From positions 434,001 through 498,000 of the forward strand of contig JAHHGX010000065.1 in the NCBI GenBank assembly GCA_019359675.1: a DNA stretch of 64,000 nucleotides, in the 5' to 3' direction. The position numbers and the translations under genes are program-made. The notes under the pieces are model-generated. The model did not search any database. It saw only the letters and a list, made by a program, of their open reading frames with translations, and was not told the DNA's origin. Position 1 is the stretch's first letter; the number at the start of each line of letters is the position of its first letter. The stretch is from Calothrix sp. FI2-JRJ7. Lineage in GTDB: Bacteria; Cyanobacteriota; Cyanobacteriia; Cyanobacteriales; Nostocaceae. Shown piece by piece: positions 61,953-63,832 of the stretch.

Positions 61953-62396
61953 ATGCTACGTAAAATTATTTTATCAAACATTGTAGTTGCAGGTTTAATG
62001 CTCACCACATTCCCAGCAACAGCAAGCACCAACGTTAATAAAACACCATCTTCACCAACCTCAACGCTACTAGCGCAAGTAGTCGATCAAGAAGCACTCT
62101 ACAAAGCAGGCAACGCATTAGAAAGAGCAGCAAACGCAATGCTCGCAACCCAAACTGCAAAAAGTACACAACAAGTGCAACTGCATTTTGACACAGCATT
62201 AGCAGCAATGGAAGAATCAGCAAGTTTATTAGAAAAAGCTGGTGTTCCTGAAGGCGCCAAAGCAATGAACCGCGCGCTTGCATTAGTACAAGCTGCGGTC
62301 AATGCTGAGTCTGATGCTGAAGCAGACAACTTCATCAAAGAAGCAGGTAAAGCTTTAGATGATGTAATTGCAGCAATAGAAAAAGCAGCTAGTTAG
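61953..62396 (+). CDS. exported helical protein, unknown
   Basis: A 147-residue protein. A signal peptide (LSNIVVAGLMLTTFPATAS) is followed by an all-helical Ala-rich mature part (YKAGNALERAANAMLATQTA, FDTALAAMEESASLLEKAGV, EADNFIKEAGKALDDVIAAI), likely a three- or four-helix bundle. No family name comes to mind. It is convergent with the DAHP synthase gene and overlaps its stop by three bases. Confidence 0.65.
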   Translation: MLRKIILSNIVVAGLMLTTFPATASTNVNKTPSSPTSTLLAQVVDQEALYKAGNALERAANAMLATQTAKSTQQVQLHFDTALAAMEESASLLEKAGVPEGAKAMNRALALVQAAVNAESDAEADNFIKEAGKALDDVIAAIEKAAS

Positions 62397-63268
62397 GCTA
62401 CTAATTGAAAAGGGGTAGATGTCTGACGACCCACCCCTACGGTATTTGTTGATATTTTGCGTCCGACTGCTGCGGCAACTGGTACTAATGTGTGAACTAA
62501 ATCAATCATTTCTTCTAAAGAGAGTGCTTGTTGTGCATCGGAAACTGATTTTTCTGGGACTGGATGACACTCAATTATTAATCCATCGGCGCCACATGCA
62601 ATTGCGGCACGTGATAATGGTGCTATTAGTTCGCGTCTGCCAGCAGCATGTGATGGGTCTACAATAACTGGTAGATGTGTAATTTGTTTGAGTGCTGCTA
62701 CGGCGCCTAAGTCTAATACGTTACGAGTATAGTTATCGAAACTGCGAATACCACGTTCGCACAGTACTACATCAGAATTACCGTGACTTAAAATATATTC
62801 TGCTGCCATGACAAACTCTTCAATTGTGGCAGCTAAACCGCGTTTAAGTAGAATTGGTTTACCCGCTTGTCCAAGTTCTTTGAGTAAATCAAAGTTTTGC
62901 ATGTTGCGACTGCCTACTTGCAGCATATCAGCATGAGCAGCTATAACTTCGATTTGTGAAATCGCCATTACTTCTGTAACTACAGGTAGATTATATTTGT
63001 CTCTTACTTCTGCTAGTACTTTCAACCCAGTTTCACCCATACCTTGAAATGCGTAAGGAGATGTGCGAGGTTTGTAAACTCCACCACGTAATGCTTTTAC
63101 AGGGAAATTATGGAGTTTTTCTGCTACGGTTTCCATTTGTTCGTAACTTTCTACCGCACAGGGGCCACCAATAATAATTATTTCTTCGGCGCCGAAGATT
63201 ACATTATCAGAGATTTGGACTAAAGATTGTTCTTGGTTTGATTTAGCAGCAAGTTTAGCGTTATTCAT
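62393..63268 (-). CDS. 3-deoxy-7-phosphoheptulonate (DAHP) synthase, type I beta
   Basis: First enzyme of the shikimate pathway, joining phosphoenolpyruvate and erythrose 4-phosphate; 291 residues from MNNAKL. Motifs: IIIIGGPCAVES, ALRGGVYKPRTSPYAFQG, GLKVLAEV, LQVGSRNMQNFDLL, ILLKRGLAATIEEF, CERGIRSFDNYTRNVLD, VIVDPSHAAGRRELIAPLSR and DGLIIECHP. These supply the PEP-binding Lys/Arg and the Cys/His/Glu/Asp metal site. There is no ACT or chorismate-mutase extension, so allosteric control is probably limited and expression control matters more. The chosen start lies about 30 bases after a terminator at the end of a Trp/Phe/Tyr-rich leader ORF, which indicates attenuation. A longer in-frame start would place codons inside the terminator. 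Confidence 0.93.
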   Translation of the reverse strand: MNNAKLAAKSNQEQSLVQISDNVIFGAEEIIIIGGPCAVESYEQMETVAEKLHNFPVKALRGGVYKPRTSPYAFQGMGETGLKVLAEVRDKYNLPVVTEVMAISQIEVIAAHADMLQVGSRNMQNFDLLKELGQAGKPILLKRGLAATIEEFVMAAEYILSHGNSDVVLCERGIRSFDNYTRNVLDLGAVAALKQITHLPVIVDPSHAAGRRELIAPLSRAAIACGADGLIIECHPVPEKSVSDAQQALSLEEMIDLVHTLVPVAAAVGRKISTNTVGVGRQTSTPFQLVA

Positions 63269-63298: not shown

Positions 63299-63328
63299 AA
63301 AAAAAACCCGGAGTGTTAATACTCCGGG
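63299..63328 (-). terminator. attenuator terminator ahead of the DAHP synthase gene
   Basis: On the minus strand CCCGGAGT pairs with ACTCCGGG around ATTAAC and is followed by eight T residues. It ends 30 bases before the DAHP synthase start codon. Its left arm CCGGAG can pair instead with CTCCGG at the end of the leader ORF (about 63361-63366). Confidence 0.88.
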
Positions 63329-63352
63329 CAAAAGTTTGTCGTCATGACGCGC

Positions 63353-63505
63353 CTATTGCTCCGGAGGATATCCGAACCAAAAATAAAATCCGTAAAACCA
63401 GCTTGTAAGGTATGTCATGACGAACAAATTAATAGAAGTACAAAAAAACAAAAACCGCAGAACATGTAGTCTGCGGTTCACTGGGTGATTTCCATGTGGA
63501 AACAT
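63353..63505 (-). CDS. aromatic-amino-acid leader peptide for the DAHP synthase gene
   Basis: A frame of 50 codons starts at an ATG (63505) with GGGAG seven bases before it. An internal in-frame ATG (63418) would give a 21-residue peptide. Both end with WFYGFYFWFGYPPEQ and a TAG at 63353. In the last 21 residues there are two Trp, four Phe and four Tyr. The final codons for Pro-Pro-Glu contain CTCCGGAG, the sequence able to disrupt the terminator. A ribosome stalled at the aromatic codons would leave it free for antitermination, and one reaching the stop would cover it. This is the logic of the trp and phe leaders of Escherichia coli. Confidence 0.8.
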   Translation of the reverse strand: MFPHGNHPVNRRLHVLRFLFFCTSINLFVMTYLTSWFYGFYFWFGYPPEQ

Positions 63506-63524
63506 AATTCACTCCCAGTGAACC
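63453..63524 (-). promoter_or_regulatory. competing hairpins in the DAHP synthase leader
   Basis: On the minus strand GGTTCACTGGG pairs perfectly with CCCAGTGAACC and encloses the leader's Shine-Dalgarno and ATG. AACCGCAGA pairs with TCTGCGGTT and is followed by TTTGTTTTTTT, a second terminator-like hairpin. The two stems share AACC, so they exclude each other. The region therefore can switch between hiding the leader start and forming an early terminator. Confidence 0.75.
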
Positions 63525-63832
63525 ACCCGACGCCAAAAATAAAAATAGCTAATTGTATGTATCATTGATTAGATTGCTGGAAAAACTTATAATAATCCTA
63601 TCCTTTACAATTTAACAGGGTATAACAGCAAAGTCAATATATGAGCATCATTAAAAAAAATAGTGTTTATTCTGTAAAGTACGGCTTACTGAAGTAAAGC
63701 TTTATAGATAATAGGTAGTAGTCAATCGGCAACCACCAGGGTAAGCATGATATGAAAGAGCATCGATTGAGTGGAAAGCGCGGCGCCTATTAACCATCTA
63801 TTGCACAACGTTATCGACGCATCGACTTATAT

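Follow-up and report, generated by a model that had tools for sequence, protein, structure and literature searches.

Probable tandem leader-peptide attenuators, both carrying codons for Trp, Phe, and Tyr, ahead of the DAHP synthase gene aroF in Calothrix and other Cyanobacteriia

Ribosome-mediated attenuation is a known kind of mechanism. The trpL and pheL leaders of E. coli are laid out so that an antiterminator and a terminator compete, and the ilv leaders of the same species jointly sense Ile, Leu, and Val, which are among the end products of a branched pathway. Given the ilv leaders, one leader sensing several amino acids is not new in itself. An aromatic counterpart is the aroR leader of Corynebacterium glutamicum aroF, reportedly the subject of a 2014 study by Neshat and colleagues. 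As far as the accessible parts of two reports go, this leader carries Phe-Tyr-Phe codons, and stalling under Phe limitation raises readthrough (PMC11802643, PMC4046766), while the availability of Tyr is without effect (PMC11802643). Since that leader is deaf to Tyr, the presence of a codon is no proof of sensing. In Acholeplasma, the uORFC-13-1 motif combines a predicted upstream ORF holding one or more Phe codons with a terminator before aroF; the available sections of PMC8632094 give 24 representatives, confined to Acholeplasma and environmental sequences. Tandem attenuation is represented by the mgtCBR leader of Salmonella, whose units answer different signals, ATP and proline, and which is called a singular example in the portion of PMC3641672 at hand. 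For the enzyme concerned here, control is described from E. coli in the section seen of one review (PMC7997468), and little is known about how entry into aromatic synthesis is controlled in cyanobacteria.

We analyzed 64,000 nucleotides of Calothrix sp. FI2-JRJ7 (contig JAHHGX010000065.1, positions 434,001 to 498,000; hereafter the window). All features discussed lie on the minus strand of this window, where two leader-peptide attenuator units stand in series between a promoter-like site and aroF (62393..63268), which encodes a type I-beta DAHP synthase of 291 aa (NF006421 and TIGR01361 above their cut-offs). We put the probability that two serial transcription attenuators, both ribosome-mediated, control aroF at roughly 0.88; a serial leader-peptide attenuator at this place is very probably real and conserved. 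Unlike the ilv leaders, which are single units for branched-chain amino acids, the Calothrix element has two units and an aromatic code. It resembles trpL and pheL in pitting an antiterminator against a terminator in leader-peptide attenuation, but those leaders, as presented in the available part of PMC11802643, are single-amino-acid leaders with one attenuator each, and in Calothrix the stop codon lies no more than 3 nt behind the antiterminator arm. Like aroR, it places an aromatic-codon leader peptide before a DAHP synthase gene; aroR, however, belongs to another phylum and is one leader, with no Trp codons mentioned in the text consulted, whereas Calothrix has two leaders, each with codons for Trp, Phe, and Tyr. 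The uORFC-13-1 motif shares the leader and terminator before aroF but is a single unit for which only Phe is discussed in the sections available (PMC8632094). As in mgtCBR, insofar as it is described in the portion of PMC3641672 at hand, one leader RNA holds tandem attenuators and two short ORFs, each with its own terminator. Instead of reading different signals, however, both Calothrix units appear from their sequence to carry the same three-amino-acid code, and they precede a biosynthetic gene.

As far as the literature searched goes, what would be new is a series of two units that share one three-amino-acid code and are conserved throughout the class. No leader-peptide attenuator of a cyanobacterium was among the matches listed in open-licence literature, by which this would be the first described in the phylum; papers behind subscription, supplementary files, and databases that predict attenuators could hold other cases. 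An attenuator table in PMC1173090, which covers tyrA operons only, contains no cyanobacterium in the part seen. Rfam returned only a tRNA for the whole window at gathering score and, for the element alone at a lax threshold, eight matches that were all far below gathering scores; no T-box or other riboswitch or leader family was matched at its gathering score. With its wide spread in the class and its presence in strains from culture collections, the element offers a control point that is concrete and testable. It would also be a case in nature of attenuators that follow one another and share a single code, and it could be put to use in engineering the production of aromatics.

Unit 1 contains leader peptide 1, MIHTISYFYFWRRVVHWE, at 63509..63565, identified by sequence and conservation and closed by a stop codon. 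Its final codons, GTG GTT CAC CGG, contain GGTTCACCGGG, the partner of CCCGGTGAACC, which has AACC (63478-63475) in common with terminator 1 (AACCGCAGA/TCTGCGGTT). The 5' arm of antiterminator 1, GGTTCACTGGG, thus lies within the end of the leader ORF (63514..63524), its 3' arm, CCCAGTGAACC, occupies 63475..63485, and intrinsic terminator 1, with the stem AACCGCAG/CTGCGGTT and a T-tract, spans 63442..63479. An alternative three-way junction (63484..63527) would consist of helices P1 (63527-63523/63488-63484), P2 (63522-63518/63512-63508), and P3 (63502-63498/63493-63489). Unit 2 contains leader peptide 2, MTYLTSWFYGFYFWFGYPPEQ, at 63353..63418, likewise closed by a stop codon and identified by sequence, conservation, and codon pattern. 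Its Pro-Pro-Glu codons hold the 5' arm of antiterminator 2, CTCCGGAG (63359..63366). Intrinsic terminator 2 (63299..63329) has the arms CCCGGAGT (63328-63321), which doubles as the 3' arm of antiterminator 2, and ACTCCGGG (63314-63307), followed by T8 (63306-63299), which ends 30 nt ahead of the aroF ATG (63268). The run's final Trp codon is separated from the antiterminator arm by 8 nt in unit 1, in both consensus and window, and by 9 nt (consensus) or 10 nt (window) in unit 2. In the window, leader 2 lacks a clear Shine-Dalgarno site. Upstream of both units, the position of a sigma-70-like candidate, TTGACT-17-TAAATT (63609..63637), weakly suggests a promoter; the region has two promoter-like sites on both strands together, compared with 1.6 expected from shuffles.

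The sequences at the start of leader 2 (63423-63414, TCGTCATGAC) and past its stop codon (63348-63339, GTCATGACGA) could pair perfectly in the window, and GTCATG is frequent at both places in relatives. In alignment A2, a stem between the leader-2 start (GTCATGAC) and the post-stop sequence was paired in 77.6% of cases against 76.8% after shuffling, with 48 of 500 shuffles as high, and so showed no convincing covariation.

An earlier note on this DNA had caught leader 2 and both terminator stems and missed leader ORF 1 (63565-63509). Its count of ten Trp, Phe, or Tyr codons in the final 21 of a 50-codon ORF (MTYLTSWFYGFYFWFGYPPEQ) was verified on the minus strand, and the sequence agrees with its placing of CTCCGGAG (63366-63359) in the Pro-Pro-Glu codons CCT CCG GAG, able to pair with the left arm of a terminator that ends in T8, 30 nt ahead of aroF. 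The upstream stems it described, GGTTCACTGGG/CCCAGTGAACC and AACCGCAG/CTGCGGTT, do share AACC and are mutually exclusive, the second having a T-tract, but they are the antiterminator and terminator of unit 1, and not, as it had supposed of one, a device that hides the leader Shine-Dalgarno. The 50-codon reading was dropped: relatives outside the window's clade conserve only the part from ATG 63418, which makes this ATG the more likely start of leader 2. The core of its proposal, a DAHP synthase attenuator that reads Trp, Phe, and Tyr codons together, is supported by the comparison of relatives that it recommended, in which the aromatic ORF and terminator are conserved and the competing stems covary; the Shine-Dalgarno device and the 50-codon start fell away.

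Each unit combines a run of Tyr, Phe, and Trp codons, 8–10 nt further on an antiterminator 5' arm, and within 3 nt of it a stop codon. In the mechanism we propose, the ribosome would run on to the stop codon and cover the arm whenever the tRNAs for Trp, Phe, and Tyr are all amply charged; the downstream intrinsic terminator would then fold and RNA polymerase would halt. Were any one of the three charged tRNAs scarce, the ribosome would stall in the aromatic run and leave the arm free, the antiterminator would fold, and polymerase would pass. Two gates before aroF would give a steeper response and a lower repressed level than one, and both would open if a single one of the aromatic amino acids ran short. 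Translation of the leaders, stalling for lack of charged tRNA, termination, and the multiplying of gates are the steps that we infer. When the window's complete unit 1 is folded at equilibrium with no ribosome present, the antiterminator is predicted to be favored. A leader that is not translated would therefore let polymerase pass, and termination in this model needs translation.

Conservation was assessed in a family set of 110 aroF loci (80 named and 30 others, some genomes being in both), from which the paralog loci L002 and L003 were excluded; upstream sequence was too short in three (L022, L038, L048), leaving 107. By aroF, the closest named relatives are Calothrix strains and Dulcicalothrix desertica, at 91–96% identity. 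The aromatic ORF of leader 2, typically MTYFSSWFYGFYFWPRxSSG, is present in all 107 loci, and leader 1, typically MFSSNSYFYFWFRVVHRG with the pattern M...YFYFWF..VHR.*, was found by script in 106; the sole exception (L029) reads YLYFWSRVVHRE (YLYFW). These figures are a recount, the first leader patterns having mislabelled or missed a few rows (L028, L055, L070, L074). Three loci (L016, L035, L111) have extra DNA between the units and retain both leaders, and the units therefore behave as separable modules. In L035, it is a short array of direct repeats (GATGGGCATCCCTGCCCGTCC-like) that separates them.

Beyond the family, we searched with R1, a covariance model built on unit 1, using stricter filters under which weak matches are lost. 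Among 291 genomes of the order it had matches in 85, and among 291 of the class in 107, once per genome. aroF itself was found at E up to 1e-100 in 106 of the 291 sampled Cyanobacteriia genomes; 102 genomes had both and 180 neither. In all 102, the match lay on the same strand as aroF, 112–360 nt (median 217) upstream. The four genomes with aroF and no R1 match have, by eye, divergent tandem aromatic leaders (L245, L246, with uncertain start codons, and L247) or a single leader (L248), and in the five with R1 and no scored aroF, the gene is truncated (G028) or cut by a contig end (G509, G555, G572, G685). The model of unit 2 (R2) matched 85 of the 291 class genomes, in 82 of them 20–177 nt upstream of the same aroF genes (G459, G507, and G596 included); the remaining three matches were in contig-end genomes with no full aroF scored (G555, G572, G685). 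Within the window's own genome, R1 found no further locus even at E up to 1. Tandem leaders occur across the class; the element is spread over many of its families, and the culture-collection strains that carry it include Fischerella thermalis PCC 7521 (L074) as well as Chlorogloeopsis fritschii PCC 6912 (L070). A sample of the phylum (292 genomes) gave 31 unit-1 matches, two of them outside the class (G803 and G847, E 0.0014 and 0.006), which are weak and were taken as chance.

Some loci have one unit only: unit 1 in L182, L210, L218, L229, and L249, and unit 2 in L248. In G028 (L166/L148), the terminator and unit 2 have been lost, and what remains of unit 1 is fused to the truncated aroF; decay of leader and gene goes together there. 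Two loci (L193 in G373, L196 in G249) keep a degenerate unit 1 with its terminator before an ORF that by eye resembles a DNA methylase, with no aroF match, and one (L185 in G447) has both leaders and terminators, no aroF match in 2 kb, and an ORF resembling only the start of aroF. Among 208 distinct leader pairs, the script found leader 1 in 202. The other six are a decayed remnant (L166), four whose lone leader of the unit-1 type was scored as leader 2 (L182, L218, L229, L249), and one (L223) in which both leaders are visible by eye.

The geometry was examined by placing a ribosome footprint in silico and computing the probability (P) that the left arm of terminator 2 pairs with the arm at the end of the ORF. 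This was done in 196 of the 208 distinct pairs, a set slightly contaminated, as in the tail counts and aromatic-string test below, by the misassigned rows; in the other 12, the terminator was not found by script or the arm was not relocated. Pairing had P > 0.5 in 190 loci with the footprint mid-run and in 189 with it at the first aromatic codon, was kept in 153 at the last aromatic codon, where part of the arm is covered, and occurred in none at the stop codon, by construction, as the arm is masked. When the ORF tail was shuffled, free-arm pairing fell from 189 to 69 of 196 loci. In silico, then, a stalled ribosome frees the arm and a finishing ribosome covers it. In the window, P mid-run was 0.93 for unit 2 and 0.76 or 1.0, depending on arm definition, for unit 1, and at the last aromatic codon 0.20 and 0, respectively, which suggests that the aromatic codons are not all equally good sensors.

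Aromatic-rich ORF tails also arise by chance. Three tails in the window have at least 6 aromatics in the last 16 codons, all of Trp, Phe, and Tyr, and an ATG, and two of them are leaders 1 and 2. Forty dinucleotide shuffles of the window gave 122 such tails, or about 3 per window. Most of these (93) have exactly 6, so leader 1 does not stand out by its aromatic count alone; a count of 9, that of leader 2, appeared once in the 40 shuffled windows. What rules out chance is the conservation of the leader sequences, and not the counts within the window. All of Trp, Phe, and Tyr are present in 198 of 208 leader-2 tails and 197 of 202 leader-1 tails from the distinct pairs, which were chosen for aromatic richness. 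When every distinct aromatic string is counted once and residues are redistributed, 73 of 82 strings of leader 2 contain all three against 55.6 expected, and 55 of 60 strings of leader 1 against 40.6, each with 0 of 2000 shuffles as high; the looser branch of the leader-1 picker required Trp, which tilts its Trp result somewhat, and the leader-2 picker required only six aromatics of whatever kind. By this sequence measure, composition alone does not account for the presence of Trp, Phe, and Tyr together in both leaders. Constraint is also visible at the codon level. We chose 115 leader-2 cores by their residues, W-F/Y-F/Y-x-F/Y-F/Y/C-F/W-W. Their third positions have T:C ratios of 81:34 in the third codon and 33:82 in the sixth, and the residue class is kept despite this variation. 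A length change in leader 2, from WFYGFYFW to WFYFYFW, is in frame.

It is likely, from these sequences, that each of Trp, Phe, and Tyr is sensed by the leaders. A true attenuator pair could nevertheless have one effective signal, for example Phe, with the other aromatic codons as passengers. Phe codons are the most numerous in the leaders, the position in the run alters pairing, and C. glutamicum aroR, with its Phe-Tyr-Phe codons, answers Phe limitation and not Tyr in the part of PMC11802643 available. The retention of Trp, Phe, and Tyr in both leaders beyond composition argues against such a restriction, which we regard as possible and rather unlikely.

In nascent-chain arrest of the TnaC type, the leader peptides, and not tRNA charging, would halt the ribosome upon binding of a small molecule, such as an aromatic amino acid in free form. 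The family strongly conserves the order WFYGFYFW with a small fourth residue (mostly Gly, otherwise mostly Ser), which exceeds the needs of codon counting. However, aromatic order varies widely across loci, with 82 and 60 distinct strings, and the conserved C-terminal residues are accounted for by the RNA arm they encode. Arrest by bound product would moreover free the arm and raise expression at plenty, the wrong sign for biosynthesis, and we consider this explanation very unlikely.

Covariation supports the antiterminators and terminators of both units. In the class-wide alignment A4 (102 rows), 94.1% of the cells of antiterminator 1 are paired; double-change cells number 66, where shuffling gives 18.7 and came as high in 0 of 500 runs, although A4 was fitted to the fold with terminator and three-way junction. 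That fold, toward which A4 accordingly leans, has 127 double-change cells against 36.9 (0 of 500), and the stem of terminator 1 is paired in 97.3% of cells in the same rows. In some rows, such as L170 and L226, all arms of unit 1 have changed together. In unit 2, the leader end AGTTCCGGG (CTCCGGAG in the window) pairs with the left arm of terminator 2; alignment A5 (92 rows) has 54 double-change cells for antiterminator 2 against 21.0 (0 of 500) and, for terminator 2, the stem to which it was fitted, 55 against 18.0. The alignment rows are related and not independent, so the shuffle counts are not probabilities; A4 and A5 were built from 100 and 98 chosen sources, a subset of the loci, and A4 includes two marginal rows, which are the window's unit 2 and that of L169. 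The column counts for antiterminator 2 (54 against 21.0) are a better test than energies at swapped loci, where medians were -17.4 for the own arm, -15.4 for a swapped locus, and -8.2 after shuffling, and in 148 of 180 cases the median swap did not beat the own energy; a shared CCGGG core makes the swap a weak control. Each unit thus has a short ORF with conserved end-product codons, an intrinsic terminator between this ORF and the next unit or gene, and a covarying antiterminator that overlaps the ORF and excludes the terminator.

The family alignment A3, made after the misplaced row L007 of A1 was removed, contains little covariation by itself because unit 1 hardly varies in the family. Across its columns 107-133, the stem of terminator 1 is the same in every one of the 35 rows with letters (the L004 row ends before the terminator does). 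This invariance is a stronger constraint than a terminator alone needs. Together with the ability of unit 1 to form a three-way junction, its near-invariance would suit an RNA that binds a metabolite or protein, with the ORF incidental and unit 2 the sole leader-peptide attenuator. Yet divergent lineages keep the aromatic run of leader 1 and the stop codon close behind the arm, P1 and P3 are paired in 69–82% of class-wide cells against 94% for the antiterminator, and Rfam gives no match at gathering score, all of which makes a binding RNA highly improbable. Constitutive terminators that yield a small RNA from untranslated frames would fit two strong terminators ahead of one gene, but they give no role to the aromatic runs, conserved frames, and covarying antiterminators and are barely credible.

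The gene behind the serial attenuators encodes a catalytic domain only. PF00793 is present in the aroF product, and the ferredoxin-like domain of DAHP synthases, PF18152, had no match in it at E 0.01 and is present in both aroF paralogs of the window's genome. Its best PDB matches carry the name 2-dehydro-3-deoxyphosphoheptonate aldolase, and the top match, 1zco, is a 262-residue chain without a ferredoxin-like domain. That domain is the seat of allosteric control in type I-beta DAHP synthases. The attenuated isozyme may therefore be controlled at the level of the gene in place of the enzyme. By a criterion similar to that of the window scan (6 aromatics in 16 codons, with Trp, Phe, and Tyr, and an ATG), an aromatic leader preceded none of 23 other DAHP-synthase-like loci in 18 genomes, of which 21 are relatives at about 50% identity and two (L290 and L291) at about 30%. 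On balance, we lean slightly toward an ancient, class-wide feedback circuit in which an isozyme lacking the ferredoxin-like domain is governed by two serial three-tRNA gates, genetic feedback replacing allosteric feedback. One of the paralogs with a ferredoxin-like domain in the window's genome (L002, contig C25) adjoins an ORF that by eye resembles the tryptophan synthase beta chain, and its neighborhood is perhaps the extra trp/aro cluster that the part seen of PMC1173090 describes from Nostoc and Anabaena.
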